Positions 1,806-21,798 of a stretch of DNA of 21,833 nucleotides are shown here, piece by piece. The DNA is from a virus. The notes beneath the pieces were generated by a model that saw only the letters and a program-made list of their open reading frames with translations, did no database searches and was not told where the DNA came from. The position numbers and the translations under genes are program-made. Position 1 is the stretch's first letter; each line of letters starts with the position of its first letter. The stretch is taken from positions 1 to 21,833 of the IMG/VR virus record IMGVR_UViG_3300050821_004248. One strand, given 5' to 3'.

Positions 1806-3455
1806 ATGGATACGACGCAAGGGATGCCACCGGTCGCAATGCCAGGTAATTCATTACTGGAAACGTTGCGCAAGAGATACAATGCAGCGAAGTATACGGC
1901 TGACTTATGGATTCCCATTCAGCAAGCTGCGTACTTTTACACTATCCCTTTTCGTAATCGATATTATCTACCTGGTAAAGAGTTTCAAGGAACAATTCAG
2001 AATACCCGTGTCTATGACACAACCGCTGTAGAATCTGTTTCAACATTCGTATCAAAGATTCACGATACGATGACACCTCCAAAAGTTCAATGGGGTTTTC
2101 TTGAAATTGATGATTCAATGGTTGACGATGCTGAATCGGAAGAGAACACCAAGTTTCTTGAAGAAGCGCAAATGAAACTCAACACCTATATGCGTAGGTT
2201 GTTTAACTATATTCATGCATCAAACTTCGATGTCACTATTAACGAATGTTATTATGATTTGGCAGTTGGTACTGCAGCCCTCGTCATTAATCAATTGAAT
2301 GATGATATGCCATTCATGTGCACAAGTATTCCAGCCGATAAATTGGCTATTGAGGAATCTGTGAATGGCAATATCGAAACCTGGTTTCGTACATGGCAAA
2401 ATTTAAAAATTGCAGAACTTAATACGCGCTGGCCAAATATAGTTTTATCACCGAATCTTATTTCAATGATGGCAGCTGACCCTGATGCAGTTGTCCGAAA
2501 CATTTATGAAGGTGTGGCTTATTTCTGCAATCAAAAACAAAAATATTGTTATGCTGTTTGGGCTGACAATGATTTGCTTTATGCGCAATGGATGGATTCA
2601 AGTCCTGGTATTGTATGGCGATGGAAGAAAGTTAATAACGAAACATGGGGTCGTGGTCCTGTTATGGAAGCTTTGCCTTCCATCATATCTTTGAATGAAA
2701 TGGCGAGAGTTGAACTTGCTTCAGCGAATCTTAATACTTTTAGACCGTATATGGCTTTTAGTGATGCTGTATTTAATCCTCATACCTTTAAACTTGAACC
2801 ATTTACTATTATTCCGATTGCACCTATTGGCACAAATGGCCAGGTTCCTCTTATTCCCTTACCTAATAGTGCATCACCCGAATTTGCTCAGATGACAATT
2901 GCTGATTTGCGTATGCAAATCAAACAGCTTTTATTTGCAGAGCAGCCACAGGATTCACGTAGCGTACAGCCACAAACAGCTTACGAATTGGCAATGAAAC
3001 AATCCAATCTCGCTGAAAAGATTGGTCCTGGTTTTTCGCGTATGGAACAGGAAATGGGATGGCCAATTATCAAACGTTGTGCTTACATTTTAAATTCCAT
3101 GGGTTTATTGCCTTATCCAAAAGCGGGTGGTTTACCTATCAAGTTTAAATATCAATCACCGCTGGCGCTTTCAAAAGGACGCGCTGATGTAGAACGTCTC
3201 GTACAGTATGTACAGGTCATGCAAGGCATTATGGGGCAGGAAGCAACACAGCTTTATATTAACCCTAAAACAACGCCTTATATGCTTGCTGAAAGCCTGC
3301 AGATAGACCAGCGTTATCTGAATAAACCAAAAGATGTAGCTCGTGTTATGCAGCAACAACAGAATAAACAAAATCTCGCTGAACTTGCAAATCCAGCAGG
3401 GATGATGCCGCAACAACCGGAAAACCCAAGTGCTCAACCAATAGCGACTTCATAA
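1806..3455 (+). CDS. portal protein (head-to-tail connector, T7 gp8-like)
   Basis: A 549-residue portal of the head-tail connector family (T7 gp8 is 536 residues). Twelve copies are expected to form the ring at one capsid vertex through which DNA enters and leaves, and on which scaffold, terminase and tail dock. Family features visible are an early Arg/Trp-rich helical segment (LRKRYNAAKYTADLWIPIQQAAYF), a Y-D-x-T-A-V-E-S-V stretch at about residue 70 followed by a Pro-Pro pair before VQWGF, the central W-R-W-K-K...GRGP segment before a long helix, and a Gln-rich, disordered C-terminus. An AGGTGG site about 8 bases upstream supports the ATG. The Gln/Pro-rich tail (about residues 515-549) probably lies at the inner barrel end. 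Length, position and sequence all agree. Confidence 0.93.
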   Translation: MDTTQGMPPVAMPGNSLLETLRKRYNAAKYTADLWIPIQQAAYFYTIPFRNRYYLPGKEFQGTIQNTRVYDTTAVESVSTFVSKIHDTMTPPKVQWGFLEIDDSMVDDAESEENTKFLEEAQMKLNTYMRRLFNYIHASNFDVTINECYYDLAVGTAALVINQLNDDMPFMCTSIPADKLAIEESVNGNIETWFRTWQNLKIAELNTRWPNIVLSPNLISMMAADPDAVVRNIYEGVAYFCNQKQKYCYAVWADNDLLYAQWMDSSPGIVWRWKKVNNETWGRGPVMEALPSIISLNEMARVELASANLNTFRPYMAFSDAVFNPHTFKLEPFTIIPIAPIGTNGQVPLIPLPNSASPEFAQMTIADLRMQIKQLLFAEQPQDSRSVQPQTAYELAMKQSNLAEKIGPGFSRMEQEMGWPIIKRCAYILNSMGLLPYPKAGGLPIKFKYQSPLALSKGRADVERLVQYVQVMQGIMGQEATQLYINPKTTPYMLAESLQIDQRYLNKPKDVARVMQQQQNKQNLAELANPAGMMPQQPENPSAQPIATS

Positions 3456-3470
3456 TAAAATGAGGAATGA

Positions 3471-3785
3471 ATGGAACCTGATAAAAATCCGATTCTGCAA
3501 CAGGAAGATTATACCGAACAATATCGAAAGAATGTTGAAGAGCTTAGAAACAGCCCAGCAGTTATTGAATGGGATAAACTCTGTTATGAATTATTTGAAA
3601 TGAACCCTCTAGGGAAGCGTTGGATGGAAATGGTGACTGAGAGATATCTCATACCGGCATTAGCGAGGCCTGGTACGCCTACTTACCAACTTGACATTAT
3701 GTTCTGGGATGGATTCAAGGAATTCGGGCGTATGCTTTTACTAGCGCTTCAAACGCATAAACATAGAATTGCTGCAGGTAAATAA
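3471..3785 (+). CDS. Bbp19-like small phage protein
   Basis: A 104-residue protein between portal and scaffold. Its core (LFEMNPLGKRWMEMVTERYL, then a Pro-Gly-Thr turn, then FWDGFKEFGRMLLLAL) matches the pattern of the small Bbp19-type family: an F-x-T/N-P-x-G-K-x-W/V helix, a loop, and an E-G-R/F-G-R helix ahead of a hydrophobic segment. Members are common next to podoviral portal and scaffold genes and their role is not firmly known; assembly or head-tail joining is a guess from position. GAGGA sits 4 bases ahead of the ATG. An ATG at 3467 is out of frame and ignored. It ends 3 bases before the scaffold start. Confidence 0.65.
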   Translation: MEPDKNPILQQEDYTEQYRKNVEELRNSPAVIEWDKLCYELFEMNPLGKRWMEMVTERYLIPALARPGTPTYQLDIMFWDGFKEFGRMLLLALQTHKHRIAAGK

Positions 3786-3788
3786 TCA

Positions 3789-4457
3789 ATGACAGATGAT
3801 GAACAAAAAGCCGCTTGGTTTATTGATGAAGGTATTCCAGGAGTCGGCGAAAGGCCGTCATGGCTTCCTGATAAATACAAGACAGTAGCTGATTTGGCAA
3901 AGAGTAATTCTGAACTTGAAAGAAGATTAGGGACTGTACCTGATAAATACGATTTTTCGAAATCAAAGTTTCTTGACCCTGAATATGCACCATTTCAAGA
4001 ACTTCAGGCTTTTGCTAAAGATAAGCGTGTTTCTCAGGATGTGATGGATAAATTCATCGAATCGATTGATAAATATGTTGACCAGTTTAGCGTGAAAGAA
4101 GAACAGGAAATGAAAGCATTGGGTGACAATGCGAAAGAGCGAATAGACATTCTTGATAACTGGGCTAAAGCCAATTTATCAAAAGATAGTTATGAAGCAT
4201 TGACCAGTTCCATGAATAACGCCGCATCCATTAAAGCACTTGAAGAATTAAGAGGTAAGTTTATGTCATCGACTCCACAGATTCCTGGCAACAATGGAAC
4301 TGTTTCAACATCTGCTTCTGTTGAAGATATCAAAATGGAATTAAGCAATAATTTACAAAAATACAAGACAGACGAAGCCTATCGTAAAGATATTCAAGGT
4401 CGTCTTGAATTGGCTGCTAAAAATACCTCTGGTTATGTTGACAAGGTTGGTGCATAA
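3789..4457 (+). CDS. scaffolding protein (T7 gp9-like)
   Basis: A 222-residue acidic, helical protein directly ahead of the capsid gene, where podoviral scaffolds sit. Near the N-terminus is the family hallmark RPSWLPDKYKTVADLAKSNSE (residues about 22-42), in which a W-L-P-x-K-Y/F motif is followed by a S-x-L-E-x-x-L-G helix and a P-D-K-Y-D-F turn. The rest is predicted coiled helix, with a low-complexity Ser/Thr linker around residues 158-180 and a charged C-terminal helix of the type that binds the capsid lattice. The protein should shape the procapsid and then leave before or during packaging. Its last codons contain the -35 box of the capsid promoter, so capsid can be made in excess over scaffold. 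Confidence 0.9.
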   Translation: MTDDEQKAAWFIDEGIPGVGERPSWLPDKYKTVADLAKSNSELERRLGTVPDKYDFSKSKFLDPEYAPFQELQAFAKDKRVSQDVMDKFIESIDKYVDQFSVKEEQEMKALGDNAKERIDILDNWAKANLSKDSYEALTSSMNNAASIKALEELRGKFMSSTPQIPGNNGTVSTSASVEDIKMELSNNLQKYKTDEAYRKDIQGRLELAAKNTSGYVDKVGA

Positions 4458-4467
4458 GTTTTATACT
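4438..4467 (+). promoter_or_regulatory. strong sigma70-type promoter for the capsid gene
   Basis: A perfect -35 box TTGACA (4438-4443) lies inside the last codons of the scaffold gene, followed after 18 bases by TATACT (4462-4467, 5 of 6 matches to the -10 box). Transcription would start near 4474, leaving a leader of about 125 bases before the capsid ATG. This is the best bacterial-type promoter I see in the window, and its place directly before the most abundantly needed protein makes biological sense. Activity is inferred. Confidence 0.65.
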
Positions 4468-4600
4468 ATTATCACTACCATTTGTGCTTTTTATAAAGGA
4501 CAACTTGGCTATTCGACCCGTATAGGACAATCGAGACATAGCAAAGCCCTTCGATAAAATGACGATTAATTTATTAATTGATTATTTTTAGGGGATTTCT
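4458..4600 (+). promoter_or_regulatory. capsid gene leader with imperfect direct repeat
   Basis: The longest gap in the window (143 bases). It holds the -10 box above and an imperfect direct repeat of 11 bases, ATAAAGGACAA (4493-4503) and GTATAGGACAA (4520-4530), matching at 9 positions and spaced 27 bases apart, followed by an AT-rich stretch (about 4561-4590) and the ribosome site AGGGG. The repeat could be an operator, a translation signal or chance. A 10-codon ATG frame at 4559-4591 has no ribosome site and is not called a gene. No clear terminator is present. Confidence 0.4.
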
Positions 4601-5431
4601 ATGTCTACTTCATTGACAGCTGTGCAACAGATTGAGTTTGACGCACTCGTAAAAGCTGAATATCAATCGCTAGGTTTTTTATTACGCGACACAGTACGTG
4701 TTCGTCGTGACGTTATTGGTGCTACCGTTTCATTCCGTAAAGTTAACCAGATTCAGGCTGTTCCAACAGGTTACCTGCAAACAGTTGTTATTCAGGACCC
4801 TGGTTACACGCAGTCATCTGCCATTCTTACAAAGTATACAGCGCCAACCGCTGTTGACTCTGTACAGGAACTGACAGTTAACTTCGATGCCAAGATGGAA
4901 AATGCCATGTTGGTTGCGAATGCATTAGGCCGTCGTTCTGACCAAATCATCATTAACTCGTTGGCTACAAGCCCTGGCCAGACGACTGTTGATGGTGGAA
5001 CGAACATGACTTACGCGAAATACACGCAAGCCATCCAGTTCTTTGATAACAATGCTGTGCCACTACCGGAACGTTTTGCAGCTATGTCTGCGAGTAACTT
5101 CCAGTCTTTATTACAAGCACAGGAATTTACATCAACCTTCTATACACAGAATCGTGTTCTGGATAAAGGATTTGTCAGGGATTACCTTGGGATTAATTTG
5201 ATTGTCATTCCTCAGATGGTTGAAGGTGGATTACCGTTTGCAAGTGCAAATATCCGTGAAACATTCTTCTGGCACAAGCAATCAACTGGTATGGGTATTG
5301 GTCATGACTTCCGTACTGAAATCAATTATCTTCCACGCGAAACAAGCTGGTTGATTAACGGTATTTTCAGTGCTGGCGCAATCACCATTGATAATCTGGG
5401 TATCATCCAAATTAACTGCGATGAAGCATAA
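4601..5431 (+). CDS. major capsid protein
   Basis: A 276-residue capsid protein that follows the scaffold gene. The N-terminal part (IEFDALVKAEYQSLGFLLRD, then VRRDVIGATVSFRKV) fits the HK97-type fold seen in the capsid family of many podoviruses: an F-D-x-x-V-K-x-x-Y-Q helix, then the strand pair in which a G-x-T-x-x-F-R/P-x-x motif starts the E-loop region. The centre has the D-A-K-x-E-N-A-M-x-V-A-x-A-L-G-R-R-x-D long helix and the C-terminal part the G-I-G-H-D-F-R-T-E-I-N-Y-x-x-x-R/K-x-S-W-x-I-N-G segment of the family. At 276 residues it is shorter than T7 gp10 (345), with no obvious extra domain. The ribosome site AGGGG lies 6 bases before the ATG. Expression should be high from the promoter at 4438-4467. 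Confidence 0.9.
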   Translation: MSTSLTAVQQIEFDALVKAEYQSLGFLLRDTVRVRRDVIGATVSFRKVNQIQAVPTGYLQTVVIQDPGYTQSSAILTKYTAPTAVDSVQELTVNFDAKMENAMLVANALGRRSDQIIINSLATSPGQTTVDGGTNMTYAKYTQAIQFFDNNAVPLPERFAAMSASNFQSLLQAQEFTSTFYTQNRVLDKGFVRDYLGINLIVIPQMVEGGLPFASANIRETFFWHKQSTGMGIGHDFRTEINYLPRETSWLINGIFSAGAITIDNLGIIQINCDEA

Positions 5432-5458
5432 TCGTTAACGAATAGGAGTAATTTTATC

Positions 5459-6343
5459 ATGGCTTATACGAGTGCGAACTGGGCATGTATATCTTCTTCC
5501 CTTAATCAGGGTCAAGAAACAGTAACACCTTTTGGTGGTTCACCCACAGTTTTGAATGCGCAGAATGTTTTTGCGTACGACAGCCCGACAGATGCAGTAG
5601 CAACAATTGCAGCAGCTAATTACTTTTTAACTCAATGGCCATCTTTAAGTGTGGGTGACTGGATTCTGGTTAATGGTACGGATGCGAGTGAAATTCTTGT
5701 TGTAACCGCTGTATCGTCATCAAGTGTCACTACTGCAGGATTTACCGCAAGTGGAACCGTAAATACGGCGAATATCGTCAATAATGCTGTGACTTATGCG
5801 AAAATTCAGCAGGCTTCTGCAGATACCTTAATTGGTAATCCAACAGGTGGAACCGCGAATGTTGAAGAAATCACATTGGGTAACGGCCTTGAATTTAGTG
5901 GTACAACACTACGTGTGCCTTTAGCTGTAGCTCAATACACTACGGTTAATATGACACTTGCTCAATTCCTTGGAATGTATGCTACACCATTCCAGATTTT
6001 AGCAGCGCCAGGCGCCGGTGTAATGAATATCGTGCATAGCTGTGCTATCAATATGCATTATGGTTCTGCAGCACTTGTTGGTGGTGGTGCGGTCGGTCTT
6101 CAATATGGAAGCACTGCACATTTAGCAGCGCCTCCTGCATCTGCAACAGAAGCTGCTACAGACTTTACGGGTGCGAGTGCTAGCACCATGTTTAGATTTG
6201 GCGGTGGTCTATCGACTGGTGCTGTTGTGTCTACAGCTGCAAACACTGCGATTTATATCAGTAATGCAACAGGAGCATTCACAGTAGGTACAGGTGCTAC
6301 ATTTACAGTAGATGTCTGGTACTCCACTGTTGCTGCGACCTAA
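5459..6343 (+). CDS. head-fibre or decoration-type structural protein
   Basis: A 294-residue protein right after the capsid gene. Three parts can be seen. Residues 1-100: a start domain with W-A-C-I-S-S-S-L-N, F-A-Y-D-S-P-T-D-A-V-A-T-I-A-A-A-N-Y-F and L-S-V-G-D-W-I-L-V blocks, a pattern common in small phage structural proteins placed after the capsid gene. Residues about 108-155: a linker of the type seen in fibres (NNAVTYAKIQQASADTLIGN, then EEITLGNGLEFSG). Residues 155-294: an Ala/Gly/Thr-rich beta domain. The layout points to a trimeric fibre or spike, most likely on the head given its position, though a tail location is not excluded. There is a good AGGAG ribosome site. No signal or membrane part. 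Confidence 0.65.
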   Translation: MAYTSANWACISSSLNQGQETVTPFGGSPTVLNAQNVFAYDSPTDAVATIAAANYFLTQWPSLSVGDWILVNGTDASEILVVTAVSSSSVTTAGFTASGTVNTANIVNNAVTYAKIQQASADTLIGNPTGGTANVEEITLGNGLEFSGTTLRVPLAVAQYTTVNMTLAQFLGMYATPFQILAAPGAGVMNIVHSCAINMHYGSAALVGGGAVGLQYGSTAHLAAPPASATEAATDFTGASASTMFRFGGGLSTGAVVSTAANTAIYISNATGAFTVGTGATFTVDVWYSTVAAT

Positions 6344-6362
6344 TCTATAGGAGAGATTTTGA

Positions 6363-6968
6363 ATGGCTTATACCAAGACTAGTATTATTTCCCTGGCAGT
6401 AATGCTACTTGGTCATAAGCCAATCATCACACTCGATAATGCAGATGATATGGTTATTTCTGCAGAACAGGCATTCGATATTTTATTGCCAAGTGTCCTT
6501 TCAACAGGAAATTGGCGATTTTCAATGAAGATAGAAGAGTTGGTTTTAACAACTTTAATTCCACCTCCTCAAACAAACTGGACGCAGATTTATTTATTGC
6601 CAGCGGGATATCTAAAAAATATACGCATTATTCCCCAAAATTATGTCTACGAAATTTATTCAAATAGTCAGATATGGTGTAACTGGGGAACTCAGTCGCC
6701 TATCTTCATGGAATTCGCATATCTTCCTGAAATTGCACAATTGCCAGCTTATTTTATAAATTATTTTATCTATGAAATAGCAACATTTCTTGGATTGTCC
6801 AGTGCTCAAAAGCCTGAATATGCATCATTTCTTGAGTCAAAGAAAAACACACAATGGGCTATTGCTGCAGCAGCTGACGCACAAAATCGTCCACAGTTTG
6901 TGGAATACGATATTCCAATGCTTACGAAGCGCAATATAACAGGTATCATTGGTCCACAAATCGGTTGA
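6363..6968 (+). CDS. tail tubular protein A (T7 gp11-like adaptor)
   Basis: A 201-residue protein matching the gp11 family, which forms a 12-fold ring joining the portal to the nozzle. The N-terminus shows the family pattern: a short helix ending in LAVMLLGHKPI, then a polar turn with an Asp (DNADDMV), a helix with A-x-x-x-F/Y-D-I-L-L-P-S-V-L, then N-W-R-F-S. The middle contains the L-L-P-A-G-Y-L beta segment typical of the insert, and the C-terminal half is helical (INYFIYEIATFLGLSS). T7 gp11 has 196 residues, so the length fits. AGGAG lies about 10 bases before the ATG. The stop codon nearly touches the next gene. Confidence 0.88.
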   Translation: MAYTKTSIISLAVMLLGHKPIITLDNADDMVISAEQAFDILLPSVLSTGNWRFSMKIEELVLTTLIPPPQTNWTQIYLLPAGYLKNIRIIPQNYVYEIYSNSQIWCNWGTQSPIFMEFAYLPEIAQLPAYFINYFIYEIATFLGLSSAQKPEYASFLESKKNTQWAIAAAADAQNRPQFVEYDIPMLTKRNITGIIGPQIG

Positions 6969-6979
6969 GGGACTATGAG

Positions 6980-9562
6980 ATGGCTTTCACACTTTGGTCG
7001 CAGGATATCTTCACCAAGGGCGAATTATCGCCTTACATGTATGCTCGTGCTACGGTTAATGAATATTACAATGGTTTAAAGACTGCACAGAATGTTTTGA
7101 CCTATCCTACTGGTGCTGCTGGTAAACGCTTTGGGACGCTTTATCAAGCAACAATTGATGCGACGTTAACCTATCAAGAGATTTATTTTCAAACATTCCA
7201 GTATCTTAATGAATGTGTTTATCAACTGGTTTTCATTCCACTATCAGTTTATGTTTTTCTTGAAGGGATAGAAATATTTAGAATAAATACTTCACTGACA
7301 GCATCTCAGGTTTATAACCTTTCAACTACAGTGCTTGGAGCAGCTTTTAGAGGCTCAGGTGTAGGATTTCCTCCTTTCGATATAACGAGAGGTGCAAGTA
7401 TTGGCCATACAATCGCATCATTCACATCAACAACATTTACAACATCTGCAGGAACTTTTTTAGCAGGAACAGTTTTACCGACAATATTTTCTGTCACTGG
7501 CGGTACTATTATGCAGACAACGCCTCAAATAACTGCTGGTATTGTCTATTTTACGGCTTCAACAAGTACGACTGTTTCTGCATTATTCACAACTTCATAT
7601 GATGCTAAACAGTATTTGATAAATAATTCCTGGACTACCAATCAAATTACAATACAGAGTCTTGGAACAGGAACAACGACTGCTACTCCACAAAATGCAT
7701 GGAGTATCGCAAATACACGATTCAGAGACCTACCATTTTATGATTTTAATGGTGCTACGACTTCGTATGACGCGTTAACATTCACACCCAGTGCAACAAG
7801 TGGTGCAGCGGTTACAATCACTGTGAGCAGCGCGTATGCGCCTTTAACAACTGCTTATGTTGGCGGCGCGTTCATTGGCGGCGGTGGTTCGGCCAGAATC
7901 ACAGCAGTAGCGAGTACGACATCATTTACTGTGGCTGTACAAACACCTTTTGCTGGAACATCTGCAATACTTGGTAGTCTCGCTGTATTGGCAGAACCGG
8001 CATGGAGCGATGCACGTGGTTGGCCACAGGTTTGTTCAAGTTATCAAAGTCGTGCGCTATTCGCGAATACATCTAGTCTGCCTAATGGATTCTGGGCAAG
8101 TGTTATTAATGATTACTCAGATTTTGGTGATTTGACGACAGATGATGACGATGCCATAAGTTGGTATCCAACATCTGATAATATGAATTATATTAATTTT
8201 ATCGTGCCTTATCGAAGCATTACTGTCCATACGAATACAGGAATTTATTCAAGTCCATTATCTGATATTGTTGCAATTACACCAACCAACTTTACCCTTC
8301 AATTACAGGATTCAACTCCTGCTGATGTCCTGCAACCACAAGCTGTTGACAACCAGATACTGGTATTATCAGGTAATGATGCACACCAGATGATTTGGGA
8401 CGGTATTAACAATGCATATACATCAACGATTGTATCTGTCATCAATGAACAATTAATCAGAACACCTCTTGATGAAACGGCTTTCCAGAATCTTCATAGG
8501 GCGGGAAGTCGGTTTGTATTTATCATCAACCAGAATGGTTCAATGGCTACATTCCAGACATTGATTTCTCAAGGTGTGGCAGGATTCACGCCACAGATTA
8601 TGGAACAATCATACGGTAATGCTTATTTCAGACAGGTTGCCAGTAGCTCAGATGGAAGATGTTGGTTTCTAAATGAACGTCAGGTTGCAACTGCAGATAT
8701 GCCTGTAACGATTACAGCATTTACACCCTATGTTCCAGGACCACCAATCGTAGAATCGACATTAACTTTTGGAACGCCGGTTTTTGCAGAATCAATTCCT
8801 TATGCTATAACATTTACAACTACAGGCACATTGCCAGCTAGTACGCCGCCATTGGCAATAAATACTTATTATTGGGCATTTCCAACATCGGGTTCATCGG
8901 CGAATATTTATGCAAGTCAGGCTGATGCTATTGCAGGAGTTAACGCTTTCAGGTTCACATCGACAGGTACATCATCGGACGCTATCGTTTGGCCATTATC
9001 GACAATCTTCACTTTGGAAGAATTGAGCGATACAGTATTTTTAGATTGTGCTGTTCAGTATAGCGGTACTCCTACTGATACCATCACGACAGGTGTACTC
9101 TATAATGCACAAGATGTAAAAATGATTGGTGACGGATTTGGATTTGTATCGCCTGCTGAAGTTAATGTAAATAATGAAGTTGTATTTACTGCCCATGGGG
9201 TGACAACAGATGTGTCCAATGCATTTATTGGTTTTCCTATTAATACAGTTATGGAACCTATGGCGCTCAGTATATCCACCGGTTCTTCAGCCAAACAAAC
9301 TTCCTTGACAAGGCCGACTCATGTCAGGTGGGCAAGGTTCATGTTTAATAATACTATTGGTGGTACAATTAATGGTGTTCCTATTGCGCTTGAACCGTTT
9401 GATAAGGCAAATATAGGCAACCCACCACAGCCAGCCCGTGGAATTTTTGAGATGTCAATTATGAAAGGTTGGGATGATTTTAATAATCCAACATATACAA
9501 TTGAGCACAGTGAACCATTTAACATTCAATTGTTAGGTGTTTTTTATTCAGTAGACAATTAG
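6980..9562 (+). CDS. tail tubular protein B (T7 gp12-like nozzle)
   Basis: An 860-residue beta-rich protein that should form the hexameric tail nozzle. Its N-terminus (SQDIFTKGELSPYMYARATV, then QNVLTYPTGAAGKRFGTL) is the family signature F-x-x-G-E-L-S-P-x-x-x-x-R followed by the G-x-x-K-R-x-G-T turn. I choose the ATG at 6980, because the GAGGGA ribosome site at 6967-6972 is well spaced for it; the frame can also be read from a TTG at 6965. It is longer than T7 gp12 (794 residues). Two Ser/Thr-rich beta segments look like inserts, at about residues 145-200 and 590-665; the second (TTGTLPASTPPLAINTYYWA and after) resembles small beta modules found in phage adhesion proteins. The N- and C-terminal parts look intact. 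Confidence 0.88.
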   Translation: MAFTLWSQDIFTKGELSPYMYARATVNEYYNGLKTAQNVLTYPTGAAGKRFGTLYQATIDATLTYQEIYFQTFQYLNECVYQLVFIPLSVYVFLEGIEIFRINTSLTASQVYNLSTTVLGAAFRGSGVGFPPFDITRGASIGHTIASFTSTTFTTSAGTFLAGTVLPTIFSVTGGTIMQTTPQITAGIVYFTASTSTTVSALFTTSYDAKQYLINNSWTTNQITIQSLGTGTTTATPQNAWSIANTRFRDLPFYDFNGATTSYDALTFTPSATSGAAVTITVSSAYAPLTTAYVGGAFIGGGGSARITAVASTTSFTVAVQTPFAGTSAILGSLAVLAEPAWSDARGWPQVCSSYQSRALFANTSSLPNGFWASVINDYSDFGDLTTDDDDAISWYPTSDNMNYINFIVPYRSITVHTNTGIYSSPLSDIVAITPTNFTLQLQDSTPADVLQPQAVDNQILVLSGNDAHQMIWDGINNAYTSTIVSVINEQLIRTPLDETAFQNLHRAGSRFVFIINQNGSMATFQTLISQGVAGFTPQIMEQSYGNAYFRQVASSSDGRCWFLNERQVATADMPVTITAFTPYVPGPPIVESTLTFGTPVFAESIPYAITFTTTGTLPASTPPLAINTYYWAFPTSGSSANIYASQADAIAGVNAFRFTSTGTSSDAIVWPLSTIFTLEELSDTVFLDCAVQYSGTPTDTITTGVLYNAQDVKMIGDGFGFVSPAEVNVNNEVVFTAHGVTTDVSNAFIGFPINTVMEPMALSISTGSSAKQTSLTRPTHVRWARFMFNNTIGGTINGVPIALEPFDKANIGNPPQPARGIFEMSIMKGWDDFNNPTYTIEHSEPFNIQLLGVFYSVDN

Positions 9563-19371: not shown

Positions 19372-19560
19372 ATGCCATTAATAAAATCTTCTTCTAATGA
19401 AGCTCGACAAGAAAATATTAAAGAGATGATTCACGCAGGCCATCCTGTTAATCAGGCGGTTGCTGCGTCTTATCACAATCAGCGTGAAGCAGAGCGTGAT
19501 ACTCATGAAGAACGTCAAGCTGAGAGGCATGCACATGAGCGTATGAAATATGGCAAGTAA
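19372..19560 (+). CDS. small conserved-type phage protein (NI...G.P..QAVA pattern)
   Basis: A 62-residue protein with the layout of a small family widespread in phages: M-P-L-x-K-S-x-S at the start, N-I-K-E-M-x-H-A-G-H-P-V-N-Q-A-V-A-A-S-Y in the middle, and a charged His/Glu/Arg-rich helix at the end. Function unknown. The frame can be read from a TTG at 19366, but GAGGA at 19361-19365 is properly spaced for the ATG at 19372, which I choose. Its last 11 bases overlap the start of the homing endonuclease gene, so the two are probably coupled in translation. Confidence 0.7.
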   Translation: MPLIKSSSNEARQENIKEMIHAGHPVNQAVAASYHNQREAERDTHEERQAERHAHERMKYGK

Positions 19561-19972
19561 ACTATGTGGCGCGTCTAAAAGACTTCAAATGATTTATTAT
19601 GATATGAAGCATAGATGTACAAATCCAAATAATAAAGTTTATTATCGCTATGGTGGTAATGGAATTACTGTTTGTGATGAATGGTTGAAAAGTCGTAAAT
19701 CATTTTATGAATGGTCTATCTTAAATGGTTATCAAGAAAATTTAACTATCGACCGAATTGATAATCTTAAAGGCTATTCACCTGAAAATTGCAGATGGGT
19801 AACTCATAAAGTTCAAACACGAAATAGAGCGATGTCAGTAGTTAATGAAGAAATTGTTAAACAACTTAGAGCTGAACCAAGAGGTTCGAGTCTAAAGCTT
19901 CTTTGTGCTAAGTATGGATTAAAGCGAAGTACTTTAACTTATATTCGATATAAAGCTAGCTGGAGAGATTGA
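19550..19972 (+). CDS. free-standing HNH/AP2-type homing endonuclease
   Basis: A 140-residue protein with the signature of a well-known phage endonuclease group: I-Y-Y-D-M-K-H-R-C-T-N-P near the start, YRYGGNGITVCDEWL, LTIDRIDNLKGYSPENCRWV, then H-K-V-Q-T-R-N-R. These proteins carry an HNH-like nuclease core and often spread by cutting allelic sites that lack the gene. The last 45 residues (EEIVKQLRAEPRGSSLKLLC and on) form a likely helix-turn-helix that helps choose the DNA target. The start lies inside the end of the previous gene, and the stop TGA directly touches the ATG of the next, so it is inserted without visible harm to neighbours. The ribosome site is weak. Classification as HNH-type is secure; homing activity is inferred. 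Confidence 0.85.
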   Translation: MASKLCGASKRLQMIYYDMKHRCTNPNNKVYYRYGGNGITVCDEWLKSRKSFYEWSILNGYQENLTIDRIDNLKGYSPENCRWVTHKVQTRNRAMSVVNEEIVKQLRAEPRGSSLKLLCAKYGLKRSTLTYIRYKASWRD

Positions 19973-20161
19973 ATGCAAGACATAAATACGGGAAATAGTT
20001 TTGGTGAAAATTTCGAAACTGAAAGAGAAGAGCAGGAAGTTCGTAAGTACGGTCCGCGCCTTCCTATTCCGGAAATGGCGGCGCACCCTCACGTATACAC
20101 GAAACATTCAATCGAGCCTGCTTATGGCAATTATGATAGGCCAATAAATGAATCTGTCTAA
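19973..20161 (+). CDS. small hypothetical protein
   Basis: A 62-residue polar protein, acidic at the start (ETEREEQEVRK) and then Pro/His/Tyr-rich (YGPRLPIPEMAAHPHVYT). No family recognised; it has no cysteine pair and no membrane part. A clear ribosome site (GGAGAG) sits in the end of the endonuclease gene, and the ATG directly follows that gene's stop. Its last 14 bases overlap the next gene, so coupling is likely. Confidence 0.55.
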   Translation: MQDINTGNSFGENFETEREEQEVRKYGPRLPIPEMAAHPHVYTKHSIEPAYGNYDRPINESV

Positions 20162-20414
20162 TATTCCTTGGCCTACATGCGCTATTTGTAATAAGACTGT
20201 CGAATCACTGGAATCAATGACAGATTTTAGAACTATGGAATATGTAGCTATGGTTAAGTGTCATGGCGAACAAGAAGTTGCTAGTATAGCAAAAGAGATA
20301 ATTATGGATGGCGTCAAGATTGAAGCTGGTATTGCATTCAATCAAAAAACTAAACTTTTGAGCAGCTCTCTTACCTCAAAAAATAGAAAGTCAAGTAATT
20401 TAATTGAGAATTAA
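20148..20414 (+). CDS. small putative zinc-binding protein
   Basis: An 88-residue protein with Cys11-x-x-Cys14 (WPTCAICNK) and Cys38-His39 (VKCHG), a CxxC...CH set that suggests one bound zinc. Between and after are beta and helix stretches (FRTMEYVAMV, then EEVASIAKEII-like residues), and the end is a Ser/Lys/Asn-rich tail that looks disordered. Small proteins with a C-x-x-C...C-H-G pattern occur in phage genomes ahead of the terminase gene; the role is unknown. GATAGG stands 7 bases before the ATG, which lies inside the end of the previous gene. Confidence 0.65.
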   Translation: MNLSNIPWPTCAICNKTVESLESMTDFRTMEYVAMVKCHGEQEVASIAKEIIMDGVKIEAGIAFNQKTKLLSSSLTSKNRKSSNLIEN

Positions 20415-20423
20415 TTTAAAATA

Positions 20424-20445
20424 ACCGGTAATTGTTATTACCGGT
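20424..20445. repeat. perfect 9-bp stem-loop ahead of terL
   Basis: ACCGGTAAT (20424-20432) and ATTACCGGT (20437-20445) are a perfect inverted repeat around a TGTT loop, 9 bases after the stop of the small zinc-binding gene. No run of T follows on the + strand, so it is not a standard intrinsic terminator there; it may be a weak terminator, an RNA-processing site, a mRNA-stability element, or a protein binding site. Confidence 0.6.
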
Positions 20446-20455
20446 GTTAACGAAA

Positions 20456-20471
20456 GTGCTTGACAAAGCAC
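20456..20471. repeat. perfect 6-bp stem-loop next to terL ribosome site
   Basis: GTGCTT (20456-20461) and AAGCAC (20466-20471) pair perfectly around a GACA loop. The stem ends 2 bases before the AGGG (20474-20477) that would serve as the terL ribosome site. It could tune terL translation. The loop overlaps a TTGACA (20460-20465), but no good -10 box follows at 16-18 bases, so I do not call a promoter. Confidence 0.5.
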
Positions 20472-20484
20472 ATAGGGTTATGAA

Positions 20485-21798
20485 ATTTATATCCGCATTC
20501 CTAACATTGCACCTTACCCACATCAAGCGCGGATGTTTCGTGCTATGGTGGAAGATAAAAACGTTTGCGCAGTTATTCACCGCCGCGCAGGAAAAGATAT
20601 CTTTAGTCTCCAAGCATGGCTCTTGCGTGGGTTGCGGCGTGTCGGTACGCACGTGTACCTGTTTCCCCTCCACAAACAAGCAAGGTCAGTCATCTGGCAA
20701 GGATTAGATTTCGATGGCCGTCCATTCATGGATGCAATCCCTCCTGCTCTCATTGCTAAACGTAATGAAGCGCGAATGGAAATTGATTTATTTAATGGTA
20801 GTAAACTCATTCTGGCTGGCAGTAACAATTACAATGGACTCATGGGTTCCAATCCTATTACCATTATCTATTCTGAATTTAGTTTGCACAATCCTCTTGC
20901 TCGCCAGTACCTCAATCCAATCATTGTTCAAAACAGAGGTCGGGAAATCCTCCAGTTCACGCCACGTGGAATGAACCATGGATGGGAAGCATTCAACCAG
21001 ATTAAAGACCTACCTGATTACCATATAGAACATCTTAGCGTTGACCAGACATTCAAACATGATGGTGTCACTCCTATTATAAACAAGGCTGATATTCAGC
21101 GTGCTAAAGACCTTGGCATGTCTGATGAATTAATACGTCAGGAATTCTTTGTTGATTTCGAAGTGGGAAATTTAGGTGCATACTATACCCGTGAAATGTC
21201 TGATATGGTGCGTGAAGGACGTATCTGCTCGCTCCAGCCAGACCCAAGATTAAAGCTTCACTCTATCTGGGATTTAGGGGGAACGGATGCAACTGCTGGG
21301 ATTCTTTTTCAAGTTACTGGGCGTCATGTCCATTTGCTTTATCTTATTCATGATACTGGCCGCGGATTTCGATCCTACCTGGATGAGGCAGAACGAGTCA
21401 GAAGTAATTTTGGCTGCGAATGGGGAATGCATTTTGGGCCCCATGATATCGACCAAAAACACCAGGGATGGGAACACACAGAATCAAGATTGATGCTAGC
21501 ACGGCGCTATGGCTGGCAATTCCAGATGGTTCCGAAAGTCTCTATAGAAGATGGCATAGAATCCGTTCGTTACCTATTTTCAAAGCTGAGAATCGATAAA
21601 ATCAATGGTGACCTTATTGTGCGCGCTCTGCGCGAATACCAACGTCTATTCGATGAAAAGCTTGGCGTTTATAAAAAGAAACCGCTTGAAAACTGGGCGA
21701 TACATATCGCCGATACTGTTAGATATCTTGGCGTGATATACAGGCGATTATACGACACCCCAATGAGCCCCTCAACCTATTCCACCGGAAACATGTAA
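20485..21798 (+). CDS. terL: terminase large subunit (packaging ATPase and nuclease)
   Basis: The motor that cuts and pumps DNA into the procapsid. The first ATG in frame is at 20533, but the family's conserved N-terminal part lies before it: IRIPNIAPYPHQARMFRAM includes the Tyr-x-x-Gln adenine motif. The only start in frame after the TAG at 20473 is a rare one, the ATT at 20485, which has AGGG 7 bases ahead; I use it. From there: Walker A HRRAGKD (about 32-38), Walker B-like TIIYSEF (about 126-132), a coupling FTPRG (about 157), and a nuclease domain with acidic sites WDLGGTDA (Asp about 263), PHD (about 319) and HIADTVRY (about 405). The length is about 437 residues, shorter than T7 gp19 (586). 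The enzyme identity is secure; the exact start is uncertain. Confidence 0.85.
   Translation: MYIRIPNIAPYPHQARMFRAMVEDKNVCAVIHRRAGKDIFSLQAWLLRGLRRVGTHVYLFPLHKQARSVIWQGLDFDGRPFMDAIPPALIAKRNEARMEIDLFNGSKLILAGSNNYNGLMGSNPITIIYSEFSLHNPLARQYLNPIIVQNRGREILQFTPRGMNHGWEAFNQIKDLPDYHIEHLSVDQTFKHDGVTPIINKADIQRAKDLGMSDELIRQEFFVDFEVGNLGAYYTREMSDMVREGRICSLQPDPRLKLHSIWDLGGTDATAGILFQVTGRHVHLLYLIHDTGRGFRSYLDEAERVRSNFGCEWGMHFGPHDIDQKHQGWEHTESRLMLARRYGWQFQMVPKVSIEDGIESVRYLFSKLRIDKINGDLIVRALREYQRLFDEKLGVYKKKPLENWAIHIADTVRYLGVIYRRLYDTPMSPSTYSTGNM

Follow-up and report, generated by a model that had tools for sequence, protein, structure and literature searches.

Evidence that a phage large terminase gene has a conserved non-canonical start codon

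Non-canonical start codons that are conserved across a whole gene family are rare in bacteria. Initiation at such codons is repressed by translation initiation factor IF3, whose own gene, infC, begins with ATT in E. coli and ATC in Streptomyces, and the Streptomyces gene sigR has a GTC start that is repressed by IF3 (PMC5472188). In vitro, AUU read by the normal initiator anticodon counts as one of the weak pairs, for which the yield of full-length product was very low (PMC10158994). The large terminases of phages D6E, T4 (gp17), Sf6 and P74-26 share an ATPase plus nuclease fold. To our knowledge, no non-canonical start is known for any of these genes, and no AUU or AUC start on a phage terminase or packaging gene was found reported in the literature searched.

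The window analyzed here is a 21,833-nucleotide stretch of viral DNA (IMG/VR record IMGVR_UViG_3300050821_004248) in which terL, the large terminase gene, very probably starts at an AUU codon at position 20485, within a clade having AUU or AUC starts. As expected of genes of the infC/sigR type, there is no upstream standard start, the codon is homologous to standard starts, and a Shine-Dalgarno (SD) sequence lies at initiation spacing. Like infC, terL carries a conserved ATT/ATC start; however, infC is a host gene under autoregulation by IF3, whereas terL encodes a phage packaging motor for which IF3 dependence would hold by analogy, and codon 1 of terL, unlike that of infC, often switches to ATG, GTG or TTG among relatives. 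The non-canonical start of sigR holds one product below its partners, and terL may be subject to the same kind of control; yet sigR is a bacterial sigma factor gene with an experimentally shown GTC start, whereas the AUU/AUC start of terL is proposed here from sequence comparison. Confidence in a conserved non-canonical start on a phage large terminase is high for the codon and moderate for a regulatory role.

Identity of the terminase gene and layout of its 5' end

The 437-residue product matched 434 phage records by tblastn, with most of the matches listed annotated as terminase. All phage-record matches were below 60% identity, the best being Alteromonas phage ZP6 at 35%. The TerL of this phage, the closest cultured match, is homologous over residues 12 to 420 and starts at approximately the same place, although with ATG rather than ATT. 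An AlphaFold model built on an alignment of 43 related sequences reached a pLDDT of 87 (mean 83 for residues 1–10 and 96 for residues 11–20), compared with 52 for an earlier model from 19 close sequences. Foldseek matched the model to the large terminases of D6E (E = 1.8e-16) and T4 (gp17; 3e-15), as well as to the Sf6 large terminase and to nuclease-domain structures in the PDB. Likeness to the D6E, T4, Sf6 and P74-26 enzymes, at about 15% identity, includes the Walker A motif (HRRAGKD) and an N-terminal segment preceding it. As modeled, the product is a large terminase with an ATPase domain followed by an RNase H-like nuclease fold, and is predicted to hydrolyze ATP and cleave DNA. A Pfam search of TerL at E 0.01 returned no match, and a profile search against PDB sequences gave nothing useful. 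The neighbors of terL encode portal, capsid, tail-tube and internal virion proteins, which points to a podovirus-like late module. No Rfam match or tRNA was detected in the window, and a scan of genome contigs found no relative, thus giving no prophage or host clue.

The first-pass annotation had described a terL frame lacking any ATG, GTG or TTG between a TAG at 20473 and an ATG at 20533, with an ATT at 20485 preceded at seven bases by AGGG. Direct reading bears out both descriptions, and the AAATTTA run lies where it had been placed, at 20483–20489. After the TAG the frame reads GGT TAT GAA ATT TAT ATC CGC ATT CCT AAC ATT GCA and continues CCT TAC CCA CAT CAA GCG CGG ATG, the last codon being that at 20533; the stop codon of terL occupies 21796–21798 (Table 1). 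A second record, IMG/VR 3300021403_000035 (33.9 kb), matches the window at 6349 of 6349 compared bases, and the two may share reads. Gene callers limited to ATG, GTG and TTG drop the first 16 residues of TerL, which hold the conserved segment before Walker A, or otherwise misplace the start.

Table 1. Features of the terL leader and 5' end, in window coordinates
Feature	Position	Strand	Basis
9-bp hairpin in the 70-base gap before terL	20424..20445	+	RNA fold
6-bp hairpin, ending 2 bases before AGGG	20456..20471	+	RNA fold
In-frame TAG closing the terL frame upstream	20473..20475	+	sequence
Shine-Dalgarno core AGGG	20474..20477	+	7 bases before ATT; peak of SD duplex profile in ATT/ATC loci
Out-of-frame ATG, judged incidental	20480..20482	+	2 bases from AGGG; 14 of 26 ATT/ATC relatives lack an ATG leader in that frame
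Probable ATT start codon of terL (codon 1)	20485..20487	+	homologous codons in relatives; switches on tree
terL, large terminase, 437 aa	20485..21798	+	tblastn to annotated terminases; AlphaFold model
First ATG in terL frame (Met17), rejected as start	20533..20535	+	no SD, inside predicted helix 12–22, unconserved

Codon 1 among relatives and the site of initiation

Scans of viral contigs yielded 61 terL loci, of which 50 were left once loci with at least 95% identity over 300 bases had been merged; every ATT/ATC member is an uncultured contig. At the codon homologous to ATT 20485, these 50 nonredundant loci have ATT (17), ATC (9), ATG (17), GTG (6) or TTG (1), and none has any other codon. 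ATA is absent from this position, yet it makes up 23% of isoleucine codons in the ATT/ATC-started genes (p ~0.001 if independent). A set of ATT, ATC, ATG, GTG and TTG without ATA is the pattern of a start codon, since an internal isoleucine would include ATA. One of two explanations offered by the first-pass annotation, initiation at the ATT, is upheld by these comparisons, a standard start occupying exactly codon 1 in 24 of the 50 relatives. On a TerL tree built leaving out codon 1, well-supported branches force at least six changes between ATT/ATC and standard starts, and the best tree has 10. In the window and 24 further nonredundant ATT/ATC relatives, the stretch from the preceding stop to the conserved coding sequence holds no in-frame ATG, GTG or TTG; in another ATT/ATC relative, L027, the upstream frame is open by chance and the true upstream gene ends in another frame. 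The in-frame stop ahead of codon 1 is mostly 3 to 30 bases upstream; beyond this stop, many members have unrelated DNA because the gene preceding terL differs. Separately, a stop or shift near residue 222, either an error or real, divides terL into open frames of 223 and 214 codons in L092 (G014), positions 17–1333, and also in L034 and L036.

Among ATT/ATC members, codons 2 to 15 show 0.61 substitutions per site at third positions as compared to 0.31 and 0.26 at the other two, while the 42 bases before codon 1 have no codon pattern and a flat, near-random divergence of 0.65–0.68. Coding constraint in codons 2 to 15 and none upstream indicate that this frame is translated from codon 1 or a codon beside it. 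Consistent with this placement, the start codons of cultured TerLs (30–35% identity), ATG or GTG, lie within a few residues of the ATT position. Comparison for homologues that begin at the methionine of the MFRAM sequence, proposed in the first-pass annotation as a way to refute the ATT start, revealed none, and that methionine is missing from several relatives. The in-frame isoleucine codons 3, 5 and 8 were considered as starts and rejected: standard codons replace isoleucine at codon 1 only, and the SD spacing suits codon 1 instead.

Other accounts of the 5' end fare poorly against these comparisons. No standard start precedes Met17 in the frame, and a gene caller limited to ATG, GTG and TTG would choose it, but initiation there would leave a conserved upstream frame untranslated despite its protein-level constraint; the codon has an SD duplex energy of 0.0, is replaced by Ile in L041 and Cys in L042, and as a start would cut a confident helix (residues 12–22) of the AlphaFold model and drop the P-Y-P-H-Q segment, and cultured TerLs contain the region upstream of it. 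This start is extremely improbable. Scarcely any probability attaches, likewise, to the second explanation of the first-pass annotation, namely that a T has been lost, by sequencing error or real mutation, from a gene normally starting at the ATG at 20480. Such an ATG does lie five bases upstream in the neighboring frame, and AAATTTA is an error-prone kind of site; however, the block is identical in the second record and the longer form occurs in no relative. Relatives with unrelated upstream bases nevertheless have ATT or ATC at codon 1 with an in-frame stop just before it, and three loci (L002–L004; DNA 76–78% identical) retain ATT despite quite different upstream bases. A start conserved across the group and accompanied by a stronger ribosome-binding site makes an evolved brake likelier than a sequencing error.

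The same out-of-frame ATG could instead open a short leader ORF from which TerL is reached by -1 frameshifting, an account that we regard as very unlikely. Of the 26 ATT/ATC loci, 12 have a +1-frame ATG upstream whose reading frame stays open into codon 1, versus 4 of 24 standard-start loci (Fisher p 0.035, the sequences not being independent), an excess due in part to the K-Y-G-stop ending of the preceding gene or to its stop codon. Conversely, 14 of the 26 lack such an ATG, the leaders vary in length and sequence with no conserved leader ORF, and inspection of the junction found no in-phase X XXY YYZ heptamer. In the window and in L022–L024 the SD lies beside or downstream of the leader ATG, properly spaced from codon 1, and relatives place ATG, GTG or TTG exactly there.

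Initiation signals and a possible role for the weak start

Base pairing to the 16S tail is predicted to be strongest for a 7-mer whose 3' end lies near -7 relative to codon 1. The mean SD energy at -7 is -4.6 kcal/mol for ATT/ATC starts versus -2.1 kcal/mol for standard starts, values that assume a host with a typical anti-SD. Each of the 26 ATT/ATC loci has a stronger SD at codon 1 than before its next ATG, GTG or TTG (Wilcoxon 8e-6), and the codon-1 SD exceeds that of most internal ATT/ATC codons within these genes (mean rank fraction 0.079; combined p 3e-9, the sequences not being independent). With relatedness considered, the difference between start classes is suggestive: an average of 4.5 of the six usable tree-independent pairs agree with it and none contradicts it (median p 0.125). 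Weak SDs are found at the ATT/ATC loci L042, L050 and L060.

Start codons of other virion genes were compared in up to 21 genomes sharing them. Portal and capsid have ATG in all 20 clean comparisons each, and several other virion genes are also ATG-started wherever the comparison is clean. The tail-tube A gene (homologue of window 6363–6968) has ATC in 2 of 21 genomes, G003 (L075) and G011 (L087), on the minus strand and with GAGGA or AGGAG 8 to 9 bases upstream; elsewhere its start is ATG, in 17 other genomes and the window, or GTG, in one. Read from sequence, the tail-tube gene is thus a second gene with a putative non-canonical start in this phage group.

In the proposed mechanism, AUU 20485 would be decoded by initiator tRNA, such that the protein should begin with methionine, and AGGG seven bases upstream would guide initiation there. 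Codon 1 has swapped between AUU/AUC and AUG/GUG/UUG at a fixed position, the weak codon being paired with a stronger SD that may partly offset poor initiation. The infC and sigR cases, together with in vitro studies of IF3 and weak start codons, suggest by analogy that AUU/AUC initiates poorly and is checked by IF3. Slow, IF3-discriminated initiation could then keep the packaging motor scarce relative to products of the capsid genes. The nuclease of T4 gp17 is active on over-expression (PMC9958956); such activity, together with the few motor copies needed per capsid, would be a plausible reason for low TerL.

Whether the codon acts as such a brake on the amount of TerL, a plausible idea already raised in the first-pass annotation, we judge, assuming a typical host IF3, to be about evenly balanced. 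A variant in which the start is a valve responsive to IF3 or host ribosome state, with TerL rising late, is unlikely; if true, a late change in initiation fidelity or IF3 supply would set the timing or stoichiometry of packaging. It is possible, though somewhat doubtful, that the start is real but neutral, the hosts initiating well enough at AUU/AUC, or termination-reinitiation from the upstream gene giving codon identity little weight, so that the codon drifts. Neutral drift opposes only the regulatory part of the preferred explanation. It is favored by the frequent codon switching, by ATC in the tail-tube gene of two genomes, and by the short distance, at most 16 bases, between most ATT/ATC starts and the preceding stop. 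Against it, the other virion genes of the same genomes stay ATG, ATT/ATC goes with stronger SDs, and the terL start of the window stands 70 bases beyond the preceding stop. Furthermore, terL overlaps or abuts the preceding stop in 16 of 24 standard-start loci but in 1 of 26 ATT/ATC loci, whose terL genes typically begin a few bases downstream of that stop with an SD. This contrast suggests that the two classes may use different routes, coupled re-initiation and SD-led initiation, respectively. The relatives constitute a natural experiment in which the same codon has changed between weak and standard several times, with the SD going the opposite way, and this switching offers a direct way to study what sets the initiation strength of a motor protein required in low copy number.

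The terL leader and neighboring genes

The two hairpins in the gap (Table 1) are confined to the window and its identical record. An HNH endonuclease gene (phrog_3377) occupies 19550–19972 of the window, between a conserved small gene at 19372 and terL, and related HNH genes lie directly upstream of terL in L022, L045, L053, L157 and L171; endonuclease insertion thus seems to remodel the terL leader. An 88-residue ORF at 20148–20414, with no Pfam or PHROG match and present in 2 of 21 genomes including that of the window, overlaps the end of a 62-residue ORF at 19973–20161. In the identical 33.9-kb record, the early region (L070 of G001, 2292–9460) encodes RusA, an O-like replication initiator and a RecE-like exonuclease, and these early genes adjoin podovirus-type virion genes.
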